This document shows, piece after piece, positions 4,120 through 48,990 of a stretch of 52,174 nucleotides of DNA. The notes under the pieces were generated by a model. That model ran no database searches, was not told the origin of the DNA, and worked only from the letters and a program-made list of their open reading frames with translations. The stretch spans positions 1-52,174 of IMG/VR virus record IMGVR_UViG_3300028044_000009; one strand, given 5' to 3'. Both the position numbers and the translations under genes were made by a program. Positions within the stretch are counted from its first letter, which is position 1, and every line of letters starts with the position of its first letter. The stretch comes from a virus.

Positions 4120-5118
4120 ATGGCAATCAAAAAGAATGATTTTAGTTCATTAAAAAAGAAGTTTTCAACTTCAGCTAAGTACAAACCACAAAGGTTTTTT
4201 GATTTAGGGTCAGACTTTTTGGATGCGGTTGGATTACCTGGCCCTGCAATCGGACACCTTAATATGTTTTTGGGTCACTCCGATACAGGAAAAACAACAG
4301 CCTTAGTCAAAACTGCGGTTGATGCACAAAAGAAAGGTATTCTACCCGTTTTCATTATTACAGAACAGAAATGGTCTTTTGAACACGCAAAACTAATGGG
4401 TTTTGAATGTGAGGAAGTGGTTGATGAAGAAACAGGTGAAGTTGATTGGGATGGATTTTTTATCTTTAACAATAACTTTGAGTACATTGAACAAATTACT
4501 GATTATATTAATAGTTTGTTAGATGCTCAAGAAAAAGGTGAATTAGACTATTCATTATGTATAATGTGGGACTCCGTAGGTTCTGTTCCCTGTAAAATGA
4601 CATATGAAGGTCGCGGTGGAAAACAACATAACGCAGCTGCACTGGCAGACAAAATTGGTATGGGAATAAATCAAAGAATTTCAGGGTCTCGTAAATCGGA
4701 TTCCAAATATGAAAATACTTTAATTATTGTAAACCAACCTTGGGTTGAACTACCTGATAATCCATTTGGACAACCTAAAATCAAAGCTAAAGGCGGTGAA
4801 GCTATTTGGTTGAACTCATCTTTAGTATTTTTATTTGGAAATCAAAAAGGGGCGGGAACAACAAAAATAACAGCAACAAAAGACAAAAGAACCGTAAAGT
4901 TTGCATCAAGAACTAAAGTGTCTGTGATGAAAAATCACATAAATGGTCTTGGATATGATGATGGTAAAATAATTGTAACACCGCATGGTTTTATTGCTGG
5001 CAAAGACACAACTGAAGAAAAAACAAATATAGAAAAATACAAAAAAGAATACGCAGATTATTGGAAAGACATAATTGGGGTGGATGGTGATTTTGATTTG
5101 AAAGAAGAAAAAGAATAA
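4120..5118 (+). CDS. uvsX: UvsX-like recombinase (RecA family)
   Basis: RecA/UvsX-family strand-exchange ATPase that would load on ssDNA with gp32 and drive recombination-dependent replication and repair. Walker A is GHSDTGKT (residues 52-59) and Walker B is LCIMWDS (146-152). A RecA-like segment after Walker B contains the ISGSRKS loop, and a KGGEAIWLNSS segment follows near residue 230. The 332-residue length is close to the T4 protein (about 390 residues) but shorter at the C-terminus, which is acidic. It is placed close to gp32 and upstream of gp41, as expected for this module. Confidence 0.92.
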   Translation: MAIKKNDFSSLKKKFSTSAKYKPQRFFDLGSDFLDAVGLPGPAIGHLNMFLGHSDTGKTTALVKTAVDAQKKGILPVFIITEQKWSFEHAKLMGFECEEVVDEETGEVDWDGFFIFNNNFEYIEQITDYINSLLDAQEKGELDYSLCIMWDSVGSVPCKMTYEGRGGKQHNAAALADKIGMGINQRISGSRKSDSKYENTLIIVNQPWVELPDNPFGQPKIKAKGGEAIWLNSSLVFLFGNQKGAGTTKITATKDKRTVKFASRTKVSVMKNHINGLGYDDGKIIVTPHGFIAGKDTTEEKTNIEKYKKEYADYWKDIIGVDGDFDLKEEKE

Positions 5119-5148: not shown

Positions 5149-6156
5149 GTGTCAAAGACATTACTTGTAGACGGAAATAATTTATTGAAAATTGGTTTTC
5201 ACGGTGTTAGAGAATTTTATCACGAAGGGAAACACGTCGGAGGTATTTGGCACTTTCTAAACACTCTACGTAAATTTTTAGAAGAGTCTAATTTTGACAA
5301 AGTAGTTGTTTTTTGGGATAGTAATACAAGTACATCACAAAGAAGACTTATTTACCCAAAGTATAAGTTAAATAGAAAAAGTTCAGATAACGAACTAAAA
5401 GAAGAATCGTTTAATATTCAAAAACAAAGAGTTAAACAATATTTGGAAGAAATGTTTGTAAGACAACTTGAAGTTGAGCATTCAGAGGCAGACGATTTGA
5501 TTGCATATTATTGTAAAATATCTGAAGACGAACAAAAAACAATATTCTCAAGTGATAGGGACCTCACACAGCTCATTTCAGACAAAGTTACTATATATTC
5601 ACCATCCAACAAGTCATACTTCAAATTAGGGGATAAAATAAAACTTTATGAAAATCTAATCCCGCACTATAATGTTAAAACTTTAAAAATTTTAACAGGT
5701 GATGGGTCAGATAATATTGATGGTATATTTTATCTTGGGGAAAAAACATTAATTAAATTTTTTCCTGAGTTACTTGAAAAAGAAGTTAACTTCACCGATA
5801 TTTTAACAAAGGGTGAAATATTGTTAAAAGAAAATAAAGACAATATTGCACTTCAAAATCTGTTAAGTGGTAAAACAAAAGAAGGTGTTTTTGGTCAAGA
5901 GTTTTTTGAAATTAATGAAAAACTCGTAGATTTGGATAACCCTTTAATAAATGAATATGGTAAAGAAATGGTACACCTTTACTATTCTGAGAGCTTGGAC
6001 CCTGATGGTAGAGGATATAGAAATTTAATAAGAATGATGATGGAAGATGGATTGTTTAAGTTTTTACCTAAAACTGATGATAATTGGACGTACTTTCTAA
6101 AACCATTTTTAAAACTAACAAGAAAAGAAAAAACAAAATTTAAAAGAAAAAATTAA
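5149..6156 (+). CDS. rnh: 5'-3' exonuclease, RNase H/FEN type
   Basis: Flap/5'-nuclease family protein, comparable to T4 RNase H, which removes primers and flaps during lagging-strand maturation. Metal-binding acidic residues are visible: LLVDGNN (D8), EHSEADDL (E113, D115, D116), SSDRDL (D136, D138) and LTGDGSDNIDGI (D185, D188), the last belonging to the helix-three-turn-helix region. Length 335 residues, near T4 RNase H (about 305). The start is GTG at 5149, following the run TTTTTAGGGA; no nearby ATG keeps the LLVDGNN motif. In T4 the equivalent gene also lies in the gene 32 region. Confidence 0.87.
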   Translation: MSKTLLVDGNNLLKIGFHGVREFYHEGKHVGGIWHFLNTLRKFLEESNFDKVVVFWDSNTSTSQRRLIYPKYKLNRKSSDNELKEESFNIQKQRVKQYLEEMFVRQLEVEHSEADDLIAYYCKISEDEQKTIFSSDRDLTQLISDKVTIYSPSNKSYFKLGDKIKLYENLIPHYNVKTLKILTGDGSDNIDGIFYLGEKTLIKFFPELLEKEVNFTDILTKGEILLKENKDNIALQNLLSGKTKEGVFGQEFFEINEKLVDLDNPLINEYGKEMVHLYYSESLDPDGRGYRNLIRMMMEDGLFKFLPKTDDNWTYFLKPFLKLTRKEKTKFKRKN

Positions 6157-6651: not shown

Positions 6652-8031
6652 ATGTCAGACAAAAAAAACTTCGGATACTTAGGAAATACGTTTCAAATAC
6701 AGTTATTAAATAATATTATTTTATACAAAGATTTTTCGAATTCTATCCTCGAAGTAATTGACCCGCATTATTTTGATAATCAATATTTTCGTATTATTTG
6801 TCAAATGGTAAAGGAGTACTATTCCAAGTACGAGCATACACCAACTTTTGATACTTTAGAACAACTGACAAAGTCAGAAATTAGTTCACCTATGGCTCAA
6901 AAAAATATTTTAGATACAATTGAACAGGTAAAAAATGTTTCTGACGAAGGTTCATTATTTGTTCAAGAAAAATCACTTAAGTTTTGTAAACAACAAGAAT
7001 TACAAAAAGTAATGACCAAAGCTCAATCTATTATTGATAAAGGTGATTTTGAAAGTTACGACCATTTGGAAGAAATGGTAAGAGGAGCTTTACAAGTTGG
7101 TGAAATAGATAAAGGTACTGCAGATGTATTTTCAAATCTTGATGAGGTCTTAGATGATGACTATAGACATCCAATTCCAATAGGAATACCCGGAATTGAT
7201 AATCTTCTTCGTGGTGGTTTGGCAAAAGGAGAAATTGGTGTTATCTTAGCCCCCACAGGAGTAGGAAAGTCAACATTTACAACAAAGATTGCAAATCATG
7301 CTTTTAATCTTGGTTATAATGTATTACAAATATTTTTTGAGGATAACCCAAAAATTATTCAAAGAAAACACATCACTTTATGGACTGGAATTCATCCCGA
7401 TGATTTAACTGAAAATAAAAATGAGGTTTTAGAAAAAGTAAAACACATTCAAACATCAAGAAAGAATAAGTTGATTATGAAAAAACTCGCATCAGATACT
7501 GTAACTATTAGTCAGATTAAAACCCAAGTTAGAAAAATGATGGCTGAAGGTACAAGAATAGATATGATTATCTTGGACTACATTGATTGTGTTGTTCCTG
7601 ATAAAATGTTAAGTGATGAATGGAAAAGTGAAGGTTCAGTTATGAGAGGATTTGAGGCTATGTGTCACGAACTAGACATTGCTGGATGGACCGCAACACA
7701 AGGTAATCGTAATTCAATTTCATCTGAAGTTGTAACTACAGACCAAATGGGTGGGTCAATTAAAAAAGCCCAAGTTGGTCACGTTATTATTACGGTAGCC
7801 AAAAGTTTACAACAAAAAGAAATGAATTTAGCGACCATTGCCATCACAAAATCAAGGATAGGAAAAGATGGAATTGTATTTGAAAATTGTAAATTTGATA
7901 ATGCACTGCTTGAAATAGATACCGAACAAAGTATGACTTTTTTAGGTTTGGAAGAACAAAAAGAAGAAAGAAACAAAAATCGTGTCAAAGAACTCTTAGA
8001 AAAAAAGAGGTTAAAAGAACAACAATCTTAA
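6652..8031 (+). CDS. 41: Replicative DNA helicase, gp41/DnaB type
   Basis: RecA-fold hexameric helicase of the DnaB/gp41 group, which unwinds the fork and works with primase. The N-terminal domain (residues 1-150) is helical, like the DnaB N-domain. The C-terminal ATPase has Walker A APTGVGKST (200-208) and Walker B MIILDYID (305-312). The TQGNRNSI segment is typical of the family's sensor region, and KSRIGKDG matches the position of the arginine-finger loop. The C-terminus is a highly charged helix. Length 459 residues, about that of T4 gp41 (475). The matching primase is encoded about 33 kb downstream at 41010. Confidence 0.92.
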   Translation: MSDKKNFGYLGNTFQIQLLNNIILYKDFSNSILEVIDPHYFDNQYFRIICQMVKEYYSKYEHTPTFDTLEQLTKSEISSPMAQKNILDTIEQVKNVSDEGSLFVQEKSLKFCKQQELQKVMTKAQSIIDKGDFESYDHLEEMVRGALQVGEIDKGTADVFSNLDEVLDDDYRHPIPIGIPGIDNLLRGGLAKGEIGVILAPTGVGKSTFTTKIANHAFNLGYNVLQIFFEDNPKIIQRKHITLWTGIHPDDLTENKNEVLEKVKHIQTSRKNKLIMKKLASDTVTISQIKTQVRKMMAEGTRIDMIILDYIDCVVPDKMLSDEWKSEGSVMRGFEAMCHELDIAGWTATQGNRNSISSEVVTTDQMGGSIKKAQVGHVIITVAKSLQQKEMNLATIAITKSRIGKDGIVFENCKFDNALLEIDTEQSMTFLGLEEQKEERNKNRVKELLEKKRLKEQQS

Positions 8032-39999: not shown

Positions 40000-40024
40000 G
40001 TAAAATAACTAAAAAAAAATAATT

Positions 40025-40084
40025 ATGAAAAGAATAGTAAGATTAACAGAATCAGATTTAACAAGAATTGTTAGAAGAATTGTT
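40025..40084 (+). repeat. 60-bp exact repeat, copy 1 (leader coding)
   Basis: Bases 40025-40084 are identical to 40451-40510, starting precisely at ATG and ending after the codon for Val20. No synonymous difference is present, so the duplication or gene conversion is recent. Confidence 0.95.
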
Positions 40085-40438
40085 AACGAAAATACAAATA
40101 TGCAAGCTGAAGTTGCTATAGAAAATTGTGACGAAAACAATGATATGGCAATGGAAAGATGTGTAGATAATTTATTTGCAGATATGACAGAAGAAGAAGC
40201 TGAAAACTACATAATGGAGTTATCAAGAAGAAAACCAAAATGGTTAAAAAAATTAGTTCAATGGTTTAGAAGAACGGGAAGAAAAATCAGAAGAGAAGTA
40301 AGAAGAACAAAAAAGTCAGACAAAATTGCTGCTGTTGGTGGTCTTGTTACTTTTGCAACTTTAGCTACTTTATTTATTAAAAACTTTCAATATATTGCAG
40401 ATAAAATTCGACCTGATAGAGGGGGAATGAATTATTAA
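40025..40438 (+). CDS. Leader-bearing small membrane-type protein (137 aa)
   Basis: Begins MKRIVRLTESDLTRIVRRIV, identical in DNA and protein to the next gene, followed by NE. An acidic segment (residues 30-62) is next, then a very basic stretch (residues 68-99: many Arg, Lys and Trp) and a predicted single membrane helix (IAAVGGLVTFATLATLFI, about 101-118). The leader could be a capsid-targeting sequence cut after V-N-E, leaving a basic, membrane-capable protein inside the head. That role is inferred; I do not recognise the family. Confidence 0.7.
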   Translation: MKRIVRLTESDLTRIVRRIVNENTNMQAEVAIENCDENNDMAMERCVDNLFADMTEEEAENYIMELSRRKPKWLKKLVQWFRRTGRKIRREVRRTKKSDKIAAVGGLVTFATLATLFIKNFQYIADKIRPDRGGMNY

Positions 40439-40450
40439 AAATATTTTAGT

Positions 40451-40510
40451 ATGAAAAGAATAGTAAGATTAACAGAATCAGATTTAACAAGAATTGTTAG
40501 AAGAATTGTT
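40451..40510 (+). repeat. 60-bp exact repeat, copy 2 (leader coding)
   Basis: Second copy of the leader-coding repeat at 40025-40084. Flanking sequences on both sides differ. Confidence 0.95.
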
Positions 40511-40924
40511 TTAGAACAATCTAATCCTGGAATGATGGGAGGAAATGCGGGACCATTAACGGGACAATTGCAAGTTATAAATCCACGTAAAACTCTTGTT
40601 GAATTTGGAGACACAATTGATTTTAAGTTTACAGGAGTTAAAAATGCTGGGTCATTACCTATCACAATATACGATATTCAACCTATGAACGATAATATGA
40701 GAATTAGACCTGACAAACAATTACCTTTTGTAGTACAACCAGGTCAAACTTTTGGTTTTACGGCGACACAAAAATTAGTAAAAGGGGGAACTGCAACAGA
40801 AAATATGGACGTGAATGGTAGGGTTGATTATGAACAAAGAATAATGGTTAAAACTGACGGTAAGAAAAAAAATTATCAATTATTTTGTAGACAAGAATTG
40901 ATTTTTTTTGATGGAAATAGGTAA
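40451..40924 (+). CDS. Leader-bearing small beta-domain protein (157 aa)
   Basis: Shares its first 20 residues and 60 bp with the gene above, then diverges (LEQSNPGMMGGNAG). The rest looks like an Ig-type beta sandwich: VINPRKTLVEFGDTIDFKF, LPITIYDIQP, FVVQPGQTFGFTATQKL. The arrangement, one leader on two unrelated bodies, suggests a targeting cassette. It is followed by a strong terminator. The body is similar in layout to DUF1573-like periplasmic domains, but I would not assign it. Confidence 0.7.
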   Translation: MKRIVRLTESDLTRIVRRIVLEQSNPGMMGGNAGPLTGQLQVINPRKTLVEFGDTIDFKFTGVKNAGSLPITIYDIQPMNDNMRIRPDKQLPFVVQPGQTFGFTATQKLVKGGTATENMDVNGRVDYEQRIMVKTDGKKKNYQLFCRQELIFFDGNR

Positions 40925-43512: not shown

Positions 43513-43748
43513 GTTATAAAGAATTTTATATTTGGTTAGAAGGGTATTTAACCGGTAAACTTGAAAACAAACACATAGATATCACACCTATTGTGGAAAA
43601 AATGGGGGAAGTAAAAGATGAACCAAAGATTGGAATAACTGAACCATACCGCGTACCAATACCAATTAACCCTTTTCCAAAAAATGATGACCCATTCAAA
43701 CCACCATACGAAATATACTGCGGAGATAAAACACAATTAAATGATTAA
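43506..43748 (+). CDS. Small hypothetical protein with Pro-rich tail (80 aa)
   Basis: Starts with a helical segment (LSYKEFYIWLEGYLTGKLEN), a form often seen in small phage proteins, then a Pro-rich tail (PYRVPIPINPFPKNDDPFKPP). It overlaps the start of gp47 by 8 nt. Probably an operon member acting as a partner; no family recognised. Confidence 0.65.
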   Translation: MLSYKEFYIWLEGYLTGKLENKHIDITPIVEKMGEVKDEPKIGITEPYRVPIPINPFPKNDDPFKPPYEIYCGDKTQLND

Positions 43749-44520
43749 AAAACTAGTTCACTTTTCAGATTTACATATTCGTCTTTTCAAAGACCACGAT
43801 TTGTATAGGTCAATTTTGGAAAACGCAATTGAACAATGGAAAGAATTGGGGCCCGATAGAATTATTTTTACCGGTGACCTTGTTCATTCTAAAAATCAAA
43901 TGACACCTGAACTTATTGAAATGGTTAGATGGGTTTTAACTGAATGTTCGTTTATTTGTAAAACAATTATTATACCTGGAAACCATGATGCAATTTTAAA
44001 TAATTTAGATAGATTGGATGCGTTATCACCAATTATCAATTCCTTGAATAGTAAGAATATTGTTTATTATAAAGATAGAGGTGTTTATGAGGACGACAAT
44101 ATTAGTTGGTGCGTATATTCGCAATTTCAAGGAAACATTCCACCAGATATTACAGATGCTAAAGGTGTGAGAATTGGTTTATTTCACGGACCAATACAAG
44201 GAATGAAAACTGATTTAGGGTTTGACTTTGGTGAAGAAGCATACGATGTTGAAAAGTTTGATGGTCTTGAAGTTGTCTTATGTGGAGATATTCACAAAAG
44301 ACAAGAGTTCAAATTCAAAACAGGAAAAGGATATATGGTCGGTTCACCAATTCAACAGAACATTGGAGAAAGTATTGGAAGACATGGTTATGGAATTTAT
44401 GATGTTAACACAAAAGAATATTCTTATGTCGATTTACCAAACCCTAAACCTTTTTTAAAATTTTCAATTAATTCATTTGAAGATATTGAAAATGGAACTG
44501 AAAAATTATTAAATATTTAA
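43741..44520 (+). CDS. 47: gp47-like recombination nuclease subunit (SbcD/Mre11)
   Basis: Calcineurin-like phosphoesterase, the nuclease partner of gp46. Metal ligands are visible in order: SDLHIR (D10, H12), TGDLVH (D46), PGNHDA (N81, H82), FHGP (H149) and CGDIHKRQ (D183, H185). At 259 residues it is shorter than T4 gp47 (339), with little sequence after the core. Its last 13 codons, coding DIENGTEKLLNI and stop, are duplicated at 45322-45362, across an inserted HNH cassette. All catalytic residues are present, so it should be functional. gp46 follows about 2 kb downstream. Confidence 0.9.
   Translation: MIKKLVHFSDLHIRLFKDHDLYRSILENAIEQWKELGPDRIIFTGDLVHSKNQMTPELIEMVRWVLTECSFICKTIIIPGNHDAILNNLDRLDALSPIINSLNSKNIVYYKDRGVYEDDNISWCVYSQFQGNIPPDITDAKGVRIGLFHGPIQGMKTDLGFDFGEEAYDVEKFDGLEVVLCGDIHKRQEFKFKTGKGYMVGSPIQQNIGESIGRHGYGIYDVNTKEYSYVDLPNPKPFLKFSINSFEDIENGTEKLLNI
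44480..44520 (+). repeat. 41-bp imperfect direct repeat, left copy (gp47 end)
   Basis: 35 of 41 bases match 45322-45362. It encodes the final DIENGTEKLLNI of gp47. Most differences lie after the shared 19-bp start and are either silent or L/Q. Confidence 0.85.
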
Positions 44521-44553
44521 TTAATAATATTCACACTTTTTAATTTATTAAGA

Positions 44554-44561
44554 TATTTATA
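44554..44561 (+). promoter_or_regulatory. TATTTATA box inside the HNH cassette
   Basis: Exact TATTTATA ending 4 nt before the RHH ATG at 44566. It is the only such box inside the 41-49 kb operon. Confidence 0.45.
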
Positions 44562-44565
44562 TTAT

Positions 44566-44727
44566 ATGGGAAGATTGAAAATAAAAGATGAAGATAAAAA
44601 AACAAAAGTATCGGTTGCGCTTGAACCTGAATTATTAAAATTTTATCGTTCTTTACACATTAACTTGTCTTCATTAGTAAATAAACTTCTTAAAGATTAT
44701 AAAAATGAAAAATACAAAGATTTGTAA
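44566..44727 (+). CDS. Ribbon-helix-helix small regulator (53 aa)
   Basis: 53 residues with the pattern TKVSVALEPELLKFYRSL then HINLSSLVNKLLKDY: a first strand (KVSVAL), a helix and a second helix beginning with N-L-S-S-L, typical of CopG/CcdA-type ribbon-helix-helix DNA-binding proteins. Its end overlaps the HNH start (44705) by 23 nt. It probably controls the HNH gene or binds near the target; inference from coupling. Confidence 0.62.
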   Translation: MGRLKIKDEDKKTKVSVALEPELLKFYRSLHINLSSLVNKLLKDYKNEKYKDL

Positions 44728-45331
44728 CATTTGTAATATTGAAAAAACCTTAAATGATTTTCATTTAAGAAAAGACTCAAAAGATGGTGTAAGAAATGAA
44801 TGTAAAATTTGCACAAGAATTAGAATTAATTCTTACAGAAAAATAAATAAAGAAAAAATTAACAATTGGAACAAAGAAACGTATTTCAGAAATCTTAAAA
44901 AACACAAAGAGACTAAGAAAAAATACAGAGAAAAAACTAAAGACGAACAAAAAATACGAGCTAAAAAATATCGAGAAAATAATAAAGAAAAAATTAATAA
45001 TTACGCTAAAGAGAGAAAAAAATATGACGATGTTTTTAAAATAAGGTGTAATGTTAGAAGTAGGATTAAGAATTTTTTAAAAAGTAAAAACATAACAAAA
45101 AGTAACTCAACATTTGACATAGTTGGGTGTGAACCAATTAAATTAAAAGAACACCTTGAAAAACAATTCAAAGAAGGGATGAGTTGGGAAAACTATGGTC
45201 TAAATGGGTGGCACATTGACCATATTATTCCACTCATAAGTGGTAAAACACAAGATGAAATATATGACTTATGTCATTATACGAATTTACAACCTTTATG
45301 GTGGTTTGAAAATTTAGAAAAAAGATATTGA
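44705..45331 (+). CDS. HNH homing endonuclease
   Basis: 208 residues. An N-terminal zinc finger has CNIC (C7, C10) and CKIC (C33, C36). A long basic, Lys/Tyr-rich helical linker (about 45-105) would contact DNA. The HNH core is WHIDHIIPL (H170, D172, H173) and CHYTNLQPLWW with N194 and N203, a layout common in phage homing enzymes. No intron is needed: it stands free between gp47 and a coiled-coil gene. The final codons lie in the right copy of the duplication. The target is probably the gp47 end in cassette-free relatives. Confidence 0.88.
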   Translation: MKNTKICNICNIEKTLNDFHLRKDSKDGVRNECKICTRIRINSYRKINKEKINNWNKETYFRNLKKHKETKKKYREKTKDEQKIRAKKYRENNKEKINNYAKERKKYDDVFKIRCNVRSRIKNFLKSKNITKSNSTFDIVGCEPIKLKEHLEKQFKEGMSWENYGLNGWHIDHIIPLISGKTQDEIYDLCHYTNLQPLWWFENLEKRY

Positions 45332-45362
45332 AAATGGAACAGAAAAACTCCAAAATATTTAG
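45322..45362 (+). repeat. 41-bp imperfect direct repeat, right copy
   Basis: In the gp47 frame this copy still reads DIENGTEKLQNI then stop, and in the +1 frame it contains the ATG (45334) of the next gene. This suggests gp47 and that gene originally overlapped here by about 29 nt. Confidence 0.85.
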
Positions 45363-45978
45363 TAAGGAAATATTTCAGACGGTTTTTGCATTTTGTGAAG
45401 ATGAAAATATAAAAGATATTGACAACTTCATGTATCTATGTTTTAAACAAGGGTTCGATATTAAAAGATATGGACTTTTGGGAAAAACACTTAATGATAG
45501 TGAAAAAGACTTAAAAACGAGTAGTATTGAAGAAAAACAGGTAATAAAGGAGTTAATTGTTGAAAAACGAGTGGAAATTCCTGTTGAAGTGATAAAAGAG
45601 GTGGAGAAAATTGTTGAGGTCATTAAAGAAGTTGAAAAGATTGTTGAAGTTCCAGTAGAAAAAGTTGTCACAAAAATTGAATATATAAGTGACAAAAGTG
45701 GTGAAAATGAACTGTTGTTAAAAATACAACAGTTGGAAAACGAAATGTCTAAAAAAAATGAAGAATTAGACAAACTTAGACAAAGTTTAGACATTTCTAA
45801 ACAAAATGTGGGGGATGATAAAGTTGCTCTTTTTCAACAAACAATTCAAAAATTGAATGAAGAGATAAGAGAATTAAAAAATAAAAATAAAGAATTAGAA
45901 AAAAAGTTATCAGAACAATCAAAGAATAATAGTTTTATAAATGCTAGATTTCATGGTAGTTCTAATCTAAACAGTTAA
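45334..45978 (+). CDS. Coiled-coil protein with EVIKEVEKIV repeats (214 aa)
   Basis: The first 55 residues (KEIFQTVFAFCEDENIKDIDNF, GFDIKRYG) form a small helical domain. Residues about 75-110 contain two copies of EVIKEVEKIVEV, then a long heptad coiled coil (about 125-200) and a short tail. I chose ATG 45334, not the TTG at 45328, which is inside the HNH stop region. It lies between gp47 and gp46, so it may be an accessory or adaptor for that complex; this is inference. Its start codon sits in the duplicated repeat. Confidence 0.72.
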   Translation: MEQKNSKIFSKEIFQTVFAFCEDENIKDIDNFMYLCFKQGFDIKRYGLLGKTLNDSEKDLKTSSIEEKQVIKELIVEKRVEIPVEVIKEVEKIVEVIKEVEKIVEVPVEKVVTKIEYISDKSGENELLLKIQQLENEMSKKNEELDKLRQSLDISKQNVGDDKVALFQQTIQKLNEEIRELKNKNKELEKKLSEQSKNNSFINARFHGSSNLNS

Positions 45979-46617: not shown

Positions 46618-48990
46618 ATGGATTTATTTAATCCACCAAAACATTTCAACTATAAAATTATGATTAAGGACCTTGATTTTTCAAAGTTTATAAATCCAAC
46701 TATTCAAGTTGTTTGGGAAGATTTACCAGAAAACTTTACGCAAGATAAAATAAAGTCGGTTAAACATTACTTTTCTAAAAAGTATAACACCACTAATGTT
46801 AATGTCTTAACTAAAGCAAAAACAACAAATACGGAGGAAACTCAAAGTGTTGATGTGTCGGTAAACATAACTGATACAAACTACCAACTTGGTTTGATTA
46901 AACAATTCTTGGAAAACAGAGGTCTTTTTTCTAATTTAGATGATGTATTAACAATTAATAGAATAGTTGAAAACAAAATAATAGAAAAACAAGAAGAGAC
47001 CACACAATTCAAAAAGTGGTATATTAAAAACATTGAGTTTTCAAACTTTTTATCTTACGGAGAAAATCAAAAATTAGATTTTGAAAAACTTAATGGTATT
47101 GTAGTTGTTGAGTCAGACCCACCTAACTTTGGCGGGAAAACCGTTTTATCTGTGGACCTTTTAATGTTTTTGTTCTTTAATGAAACAACAAAAACAACAA
47201 AGGCTGAAGAAATATTTAACAGGTTTACAACAAAAGATAAAGTACACGTTAAAGGTGAAGTTTCAATAGATGGTGAGGATTACGTTATAGTTAGGAACAT
47301 TGAACGTAAAATGTCTAAGAAAGGTGAATGGAATGTAAAAACTGAGTTAGATTTCTTTAAAAAACTTTCAGATGGGAGTTTACAAAACTTTACAGGAGAA
47401 CAAAGAAGAGAAACTGAAGCGTTCATCAAATCTTCTATTGGGACAAAAGAAGACTTCTTAATGACCATTCTTACAACAGCATCAAACCTTGAGGAATTAT
47501 TGGAAGCAAAACCAACGGCGAGAGGTCAGGTCCTTTCAAGATTTATGGGATTAGAATTTCTAAAGAAAAAAGAAGAAGTTGCAAAAGAAGTTTACGGGGA
47601 TTTTTCTAAATCAAAAATGTCAAACGTTTATTCTTCACAACAATTAAAAGATGATATTTTATTAAGTGAAGAAAAAATTAAAGAAATCAAAACTCAAATT
47701 GAAGAAAAAGTTTCAGAACTACAAAATGTTGAAGACGCGATTGTAAAAGGTAAAACTTATCGTGACGACATGTTAAAGAAAAAACATTCTAATATTGATA
47801 AAGAACTATTACTTTTAAATCCAACAAAAACTCAAGAAGAAATCAATGCAATTGATTTTGAAAAGAAGGGTTATATTTCTAAAATCAACGAACTTAAAGT
47901 TGTTGAACCAAGTGAGTTTTATCACGAGGATAAACACGATGAGGTTAAAGAACAATACAACGAGGTTTATAAAGAAGTAGTTCATATTGATACAGAAATT
48001 GCATCAATTAACAAGTTGAAGTCTGAAGTAGAAGGAGGCATCAAGTGTGAACATTGTGGAATTGAATTAATGAATGCCGCAATTACAAATGCTAAAATTG
48101 CAGAGTTAGATGGACTTATCGTGCACAAAACCACAAAAACGACACTTATGCAGGATTTATCCCGCAAAGAACAAAGTTTTGTTCAGTTAAAAAAAGAGTT
48201 TGATGAATATGAAAAAAACAAACTTATAAAAGAAAAGTATGAAGTAAGTGTTGAGTCTTGTGATTTAAAAATTGAAAACCTAAAACAAAAAATCAAAAGT
48301 TGGGAAGAAATTCAAGATAAAATTCAAGAAAATCAAAAAATTGAATCTATGTTAATAAAAGCCGATTTAAGATTAGATGAACTTGAAATTCAAAAAAGTA
48401 ATATTAATAACACAATATCCAACAATAAGTTTAGTATCACCACTATTGACGAAAAAATAGAAAACAACAAAAAGTTGATAATAAGGATTAAAGAAGAGGA
48501 AGAAAAAGAAAAAATATACAAAATATATTTGGAACTATTTGGTAAAAATGGCATTTCTAAAATGATAATGAAAACTATGATGCCACTCATCAACTCAGAA
48601 CTTCAAAGATTAATGGAAGATAGTTCATACTTTAAACTTGAAATTAGAATTTCAGACAAAAATGAGGTAGAGTTTATGATGATTGATAATGGAACAGGAA
48701 TTGAAAAACTAATGGTTTCTGGTTCAGGATTTGAAAGAACAATTGCGGCCCTTGCTCTTCGTTCAGTGTTAAGTAAGATATGTAGTTTACCCAAACCCAA
48801 CGTAATTGTGTTTGATGAGGTATTCGGTAAAATCAGTAATGACAACTTGGAAATGGTTGCTGAGTTCTTCATTAAGATTAAAGAATACTTTGATAAAATC
48901 TTCGTTATAAGTCACAATCCGCTCGTGAATCAATGGAATGATAGTGTTGTGAAAATAAAAAAAGAAAATAATGTGTCAAAAGTTTTGTAA
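46618..48990 (+). CDS. 46: gp46-like recombination ATPase (SbcC/Rad50)
   Basis: ABC-type ATPase subunit that partners gp47. The ATPase domain starts near residue 134 (KKWYIKNIEFSNFLSYGENQ). The Walker A region is SDPPNFGGKT (166-175), which has GGKT but lacks the usual opening Gly. The coiled-coil arms carry a zinc hook CEHC (C477, C480). The signature-like MVSGSGFERTIAAL and Walker B VIVFDE (D733, E734) follow. At 790 residues it is much longer than T4 gp46 (560), partly because of about 130 residues ahead of the ATPase domain that I do not recognise. It follows the 83-residue gene after 7 nt. Confidence 0.9.
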   Translation: MDLFNPPKHFNYKIMIKDLDFSKFINPTIQVVWEDLPENFTQDKIKSVKHYFSKKYNTTNVNVLTKAKTTNTEETQSVDVSVNITDTNYQLGLIKQFLENRGLFSNLDDVLTINRIVENKIIEKQEETTQFKKWYIKNIEFSNFLSYGENQKLDFEKLNGIVVVESDPPNFGGKTVLSVDLLMFLFFNETTKTTKAEEIFNRFTTKDKVHVKGEVSIDGEDYVIVRNIERKMSKKGEWNVKTELDFFKKLSDGSLQNFTGEQRRETEAFIKSSIGTKEDFLMTILTTASNLEELLEAKPTARGQVLSRFMGLEFLKKKEEVAKEVYGDFSKSKMSNVYSSQQLKDDILLSEEKIKEIKTQIEEKVSELQNVEDAIVKGKTYRDDMLKKKHSNIDKELLLLNPTKTQEEINAIDFEKKGYISKINELKVVEPSEFYHEDKHDEVKEQYNEVYKEVVHIDTEIASINKLKSEVEGGIKCEHCGIELMNAAITNAKIAELDGLIVHKTTKTTLMQDLSRKEQSFVQLKKEFDEYEKNKLIKEKYEVSVESCDLKIENLKQKIKSWEEIQDKIQENQKIESMLIKADLRLDELEIQKSNINNTISNNKFSITTIDEKIENNKKLIIRIKEEEEKEKIYKIYLELFGKNGISKMIMKTMMPLINSELQRLMEDSSYFKLEIRISDKNEVEFMMIDNGTGIEKLMVSGSGFERTIAALALRSVLSKICSLPKPNVIVFDEVFGKISNDNLEMVAEFFIKIKEYFDKIFVISHNPLVNQWNDSVVKIKKENNVSKVL

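Follow-up and report, generated by a model that had tools for sequence, protein, structure and literature searches.

The window, by which we mean the whole 52,174-nt stretch of DNA analysed (IMG/VR virus record IMGVR_UViG_3300028044_000009), carries gp47, a small RHH-like ORF, an HNH nuclease ORF and a coiled-coil gene (hereafter cc) in succession, together with a direct repeat that brackets the two middle genes. The features of the locus are as follows:

43741-44520, plus strand: gp47, gene for an SbcD-like nuclease subunit (PHROG 100, SbcD-like, E 6e-28; Metallophos; tail comparison)
44480-44520, plus strand: left repeat copy, the functional end of gp47, in which the cc frame is dead (MELKNY-stop)
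44521-44565, plus strand: cassette leader of 45 nt, TTAATAATATTCACACTTTTTAATTTATTAAGATATTTATATTAT, conserved among occupied loci
44566-44727, plus strand: 53-residue RHH/CcdA-antitoxin-like protein (Pfam CcdA, E 5e-6; synteny in 70 loci)
44705-45331, plus strand: 208-residue nuclease (HNH; PHROG 1035, endonuclease VII, E 2e-23; AlphaFold mean pLDDT 92)
45322-45362, plus strand: right repeat copy, native empty-site sequence, (near-)identical to the cassette-free alleles L009 and L083
45334-45978, plus strand: cc, which overlaps gp47 by 29 nt in phages lacking the cassette

The insert between the repeat copies thus consists of two genes preceded by the leader, and the RHH ORF overlaps the HNH ORF by 23 nt. 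The ORF listing places the cc start at a TTG (45328), the conserved start being the ATG at 45334. An SbcC-like gene lies downstream of cc at 46618.

Read directly, the left copy (AAGATATTGAAAATGGAACTGAAAAATTATTAAATATTTAA) and the right copy (AAGATATTGAAAATGGAACAGAAAAACTCCAAAATATTTAG) are identical at 35 of 41 bases, with every one of the six mismatches located within the final 22 positions, and repeat detection placed the two in a 40-nt family at 88%. The repeat is above chance: when the 200 nt upstream of the small ORF were compared with the downstream region the best ungapped match scored 25, the maximum in 113 control comparisons at related loci being 14. In the gp47 frame the right copy still spells the gp47 ending (..DIENGTEKLQNI-stop), which is intact but unused there, and in the +1 frame it contains the cc ATG. 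It also supplies the last codons of the HNH ORF and its stop codon (45329-45331).

The recurrence of the last 41 bases of gp47 and the two frames held by the right copy had been described with the same count in a sequence-only reading of this DNA, which proposed in addition that gp47 and the next gene overlapped before insertion and predicted that cassette-free relatives would have a direct overlap with a single copy of the repeat. Relatives of gp47 and cc taken from IMG/VR gave 80 distinct empty (cassette-free) alleles. The predicted arrangement was found in 65 of these, with a gp47/cc overlap of exactly 29 nt, an open cc frame and a single copy of the sequence; two further empty alleles have GTG in place of the cc ATG. 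Insertion into the gp47/cc overlap is confirmed and, as the same reading held, gp47 ends in the left copy and cc starts in the right copy in occupied phages. The RHH-HNH pair was present at the junction in seven distinct core phages (L001, L051, L057, L106, L132, L139 and L169), and the gp47, RHH and HNH protein sequences of L001 are the same as those of the window. The pair was also found at the junction in L173 and L257, which have more distant gp47 genes, and related RHH cassettes lie 3' of gp47 in L265, L271 and L278.

Another part of that reading did not hold up as well. It saw in the left copy a duplicate made on the spot, which then changed once the overlapping frame no longer constrained it, and it added that these changes may also destroy the HNH target. 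Left tails are nearly the same even in phages whose right copies are dissimilar and match the respective empty relatives. This was seen by comparison of the last 26 nt of the left copies, the right copies and the 65 overlapping empty alleles. Left copies have an identity of 0.945 to one another and right copies 0.80, and the left-left excess was reached in 0 of 5000 label permutations. The inserted gp47 end is in frame and unlike those of close relatives (mean identity to the empty alleles 0.73, maximum 0.81), whereas the native end kept downstream resembles them, the best empty match of the right copies being 0.88-1.0, with up to 26 of 26 bases identical. The identity of a phage's own left copy to its own right copy is 0.69-0.77. 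The marker TTATTAAATATTTAA is found in six of the seven core occupied tails and in none of 84 others, and the marker GAGGATATTGAAAACGG in five occupied tails and again in 0 of 84. A GAG codon (GAGGAT) is shared by the left tails of five phages; its position is 5' of the former overlap, so that freedom from the cc frame does not explain it. We relied on the left/right/empty contrast since comparing whole-tail identity between pairs matched for gp47-body identity did not by itself settle the matter, because the overlap is conserved among the empty alleles too. In a phage of 32% G+C, all-A/T codon choices such as those of the tails are to be expected, and hence part of the likeness among left copies could be convergence. 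No donor allele was identified.

The gp47 gene of L051 is chimeric. It agrees with that of the empty phage L039 at 597 of 630 positions (95%) and then at only 114 of 150 (76%) over the last 150 nt (Fisher p 9e-11), and L051 is native again to the right of the cassette, down to its NGFEKLQNI-stop ending. This breakpoint and the shared left tails are the pattern of co-conversion of flanking sequence. For the window phage, native sequence gives way to cassette-type sequence within AATGGAAC/TGAAAAATTATTAA and hence the carried tail of the window is short, about the last 22 nt of its gp47 being of the cassette-linked type.

As the left tails are alike, the right copies are native and L051 is a chimera, the left tail was most likely imported with the cassette, through homing with co-conversion, and did not decay in place. 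The main rival is in-place change, which we consider improbable but worth weighing. It supposes that one insertion duplicated the local overlap, after which the left copy, freed from the cc frame, lost the cc start and acquired A/T-rich codons and better gp47 residues as the right copy stayed unchanged. Such a course fits the death of the cc frame in all seven left copies (an in-frame stop in each, with ATG changed to ACG in five), the confinement of the six window differences to the end of the copy, the A/T-rich left codons and the similar EKLVN tail that ends deeper occupied lineages. It does not readily account for the appearance of the same residues (EKLLNI) and codons where native tails read EVLRNI, ELLKNF and the like, for the common GAG codon or for the foreign tract of L051, which at 120-150 nt or more extends far beyond the overlap. 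In-place change may nevertheless describe the first-ever insertion at gp47/cc, and for the window phage taken by itself in-place relaxation may apply. The right copy of L106 has lost the gp47 frame and, judged from their reading frames, the two copies decay in complementary ways.

The right junction takes two forms. One, seen in the window, L057, L132 and L169, reads ..AAAAAAGATATTGAAAATGG; here the HNH frame crosses into native sequence through AAAAAAGATATTGA and terminates immediately, 2 nt short of the cc ATG. The other, seen in L051 and L139, reads ..AATAAAATAAATGG, the cassette ending in AATAAAATA immediately before AATGG, and the HNH frame continues into the native gp47 tail in the gp47 frame (..NKINGFEKLQNI-stop and ..NKINGTEVLRNI-stop). 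Hence, in these two phages the nuclease gene inherits the 29-nt overlap of gp47 with cc.

The cassette is present sporadically at this one site, with seven occupied core phages and 80 clean empty alleles. The occupied phages are scattered over the gp47-body tree, on which they require six changes, and a single clade of the seven was rejected with a carefully built tree (AU p 0.017; 0.075 with a quick tree). Synonymous divergence of the RHH gene is below that of gp47 in 21 of 21 pairs and that of the HNH gene in 13 of 15, which fits horizontal transfer. For the L132/L169 pair the proportion of synonymous differences is 0.06 in HNH, 0.33 in gp47 and 0.45 in cc. The window HNH gene is separated from the other HNH genes by a dS of ~0.9-1.1, as diverged as some gp47 pairs; it is old relative to the others, and its divergence makes transfer into the window lineage less clear than transfer into L051, L132 or L169.

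These data also bear on whether a common ancestor already had the cassette, which precise excision by recombination between the repeats then removed on many occasions. Excision through the direct repeats would be possible and L128 has undergone partial loss at another site, primase, where RHH was kept and HNH is gone. However, ancestral presence is very unlikely given the low synonymous divergence of RHH (and mostly of HNH) relative to the gp47 body, the failure of the occupied gp47 bodies to form one clade and the almost exact match of right copies to their nearest empty alleles. Still harder to credit is a target-site duplication of ~41 bp made by a transposase-like insertion. The insert is indeed flanked by direct repeats, but it has neither a transposase gene nor terminal inverted repeats, the copies differ at 6 of 41 positions, the start of the right junction varies between phages and related cassettes at the primase site have no duplication beyond an overlap of 1-4 nt. 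A DDE-type transposon was rejected on the same features, together with the lack of a fixed-length identical target duplication. Homing nucleases often reside in introns, but a group I or group II intron whose splicing rejoins the overlap in the mRNA can be virtually dismissed, as an Rfam scan of 44300-45600 gave no intron family (a chance match only) and each of gp47, RHH, HNH and cc is a full ORF that needs no splicing.

The gp47/cc junction also hosts other inserts. L054 has a Dam-like methylase reading frame there (6781-7577), and further inserts are found in L047 (6781-7916; also in L048) and L066 (6781-7258). As different genes have been inserted, the junction is an insertion hot spot. 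DNA and protein searches of a named-phage collection gave no close relative having this junction.

The nuclease has an N-terminal CxxC..CxxC zinc finger, a long helical arm and a C-terminal HNH motif (H170, I, D172, H173 ... N194). The AlphaFold model contains the zinc finger, the arm and a C-terminal beta-beta-alpha fold, the metal motif of HNH/His-Me finger nucleases (strands 169-173 and 195-199, helix 200-206). D172, H173 and N194 are invariant across 45 homologues, of which 13 match Pfam HNH. Matches to the PDB were weak, the best being Hpy99I, and predicted viral HNH proteins matched well. Assignment to the endonuclease VII/DHHRN family (CX2-4C, DHDH plus R, CX2C) was rejected, as the protein has HIDH at 170-173, no CX2C around the motif and its cysteines (7, 10, 33 and 36) lie ~135 residues before the HNH motif. 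The dN/dS ratio is 0.10-0.22 in nearly all HNH pairs and 0.03-0.12 in most RHH pairs, which shows purifying selection on both genes, and the nuclease domain is intact and under selection.

Relatives of the RHH protein were found in 70 loci, where the next gene is almost always an HNH ORF that overlaps by 11-35 nt. A CcdA/CcdB toxin-antitoxin pair was considered and rejected, since the CcdA match is weak and the partner is an HNH nuclease at nearly all loci. Many leaders among these 70 loci contain a palindromic sequence (GTGAATATTCAC or TTGTTAAAAATAACAA), with (A)GATATTTAT directly preceding the start codon, which suggests autoregulation, and the RHH protein is likely to be a regulator of the nuclease. 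The window leader retains a degenerate half of GTGAATATTCAC, which is intact in related cassettes; this half is a putative operator or promoter.

Related cassettes lie at a primase/exonuclease junction, where the genes of empty phages overlap by 1 or 4 nt, and 3' of a UvsX/RecA-like recombinase gene (named from sequence only), where the genes of empty phages are separated by a gap. Overlapping genes as the preferred target were discarded on these grounds. The primase and uvsX sites indicate that what the element follows is the stop codon of a replication or recombination gene, an overlap as such not being its target; at gp47 the copied tail is long because the 29-nt overlap requires it. When RHH-HNH sites in general were screened for carried tails, the clear cases were those of the gp47/cc loci.

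Several further observations concern these elements and their neighbours. L275 presents a weak mirror image (4937-4965 and 5684-5712), in which a relic of the following gene's native start (ATGGATTTAAATAAAAT; 16/17) remains upstream of the cassette and a second version, ATGAATTTAAATAAAAT, starts the downstream gene. At the primase/exonuclease junction of L128 a lone RHH ORF (2708-2866) directly overlaps the exonuclease start, the nuclease being gone; it is a decayed cassette. RHH-like ORFs (MGRKKK../MGRHKID..) with leaders of ~50 nt lie 3' of the uvsX-like gene in many contigs (L335-L414) and hence the cassette family is common there. Elsewhere in the window, a 96-nt direct repeat (40004-40099 and 40430-40525; 85%) spans the starts of two short neighbouring genes encoding MKRIVRLTESDLTRIVRRIV-like N-termini, and similar MGKIIRLTE.DLTRLV starts occur in L384 and L408.

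We interpret 44480-45362 as a mobile homing-type cassette, composed of leader, RHH-like regulator and HNH nuclease, located at the 29-nt gp47/cc overlap, and assign this reading a probability of roughly 0.75. The cassette would have entered this junction more than once, and would travel with its own gp47 3' end such that both genes stay whole. The HNH protein is predicted to cut the empty site, and the conversion so driven would copy the cassette and, on its left side, donor gp47 sequence into the new phage, over a tract of variable length (~22-40 nt here, 120-150 nt or more in L051). To the right of the cassette, the overlap sequence would still be that of the recipient. The recipient would be left with a chimeric but whole gp47 that terminates in the left copy, followed by both cassette genes and then by a complete cc that starts in the native right copy. 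Hence, the apparent duplication would be donor and native copies side by side. We infer that transfer is by homing and that the RHH protein acts as the cassette repressor. A broader and tentative proposal, which we think doubtful as a whole, is that RHH-HNH is a self-regulated mobile phage element in which carried tails are kept as part of the element, both to repair the interrupted gene and as sequence recoded against its own nuclease. RHH would repress at a palindromic leader operator, and each arrival would rewrite the end of a replication gene and undo an overlap.

The 80 empty and seven occupied alleles form a natural before-and-after series for entry of a selfish nuclease into a site where every base serves two genes. 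They illustrate how homing can split gene overlaps and create chimeric ends of core replication genes, and at several core genes they connect HNH homing-type cassettes with a small RHH-like ORF that is widespread. To our knowledge, the carried-gene-end architecture is otherwise known only from fungal mitochondria. No phage example of such a carried end at a gene overlap turned up in a literature search, although this does not prove that none exists.

Several known systems resemble this cassette in part. The PHROG assignment is endonuclease VII-like, as in the F-CphI/endonuclease-VII-type homing endonucleases, but the CX2-4C/DHDH/CX2C arrangement that defines these is absent from the present nuclease (PMC6083498). 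The HNH insertion in phage methylases typified by ShiLan likewise leaves the host reading frame usable and has a disjunct distribution, although that element lies inside the gene and is read through, whereas here a carried tail completes the host gene (PMC11855218). The T4 seg and mob genes home without introns and co-convert their flanks (PMC2988022). As in T4, the nuclease genes adjoin replication and recombination genes (segA by uvsX in T4; gp47, primase and uvsX here), overlap neighbouring ORFs and show flank co-conversion, but the RHH companion gene and the duplicated, recoded end of the upstream gene are particular to the present cassette, and cutting is predicted here. The closest case is that of the fungal mitochondrial mobile ORFs that bring a foreign C-terminus to atp6, atp9, cox2 or nad3 and leave the native one (PMC3630166). 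In the Allomyces atp6 and Glomus atp6, atp9, cox2 and nad3 hybrids, as at gp47, a homing-type endonuclease ORF is accompanied by a foreign 3' end fused to the resident gene, and the native 3' end stays downstream and resembles those of close relatives, which the inserted end does not. As this is a virus record with phage genes and not a mitochondrial one, the cassette works like the fungal C-terminal hybrids but is not a member of that group. Its host is a phage and its nuclease is an HNH protein with an RHH partner (that of Glomus atp6 being LAGLIDADG), and the native tail left behind is no remnant, as the following gene, which used to overlap, takes its start from it. The window extends the carried-end architecture to phages.
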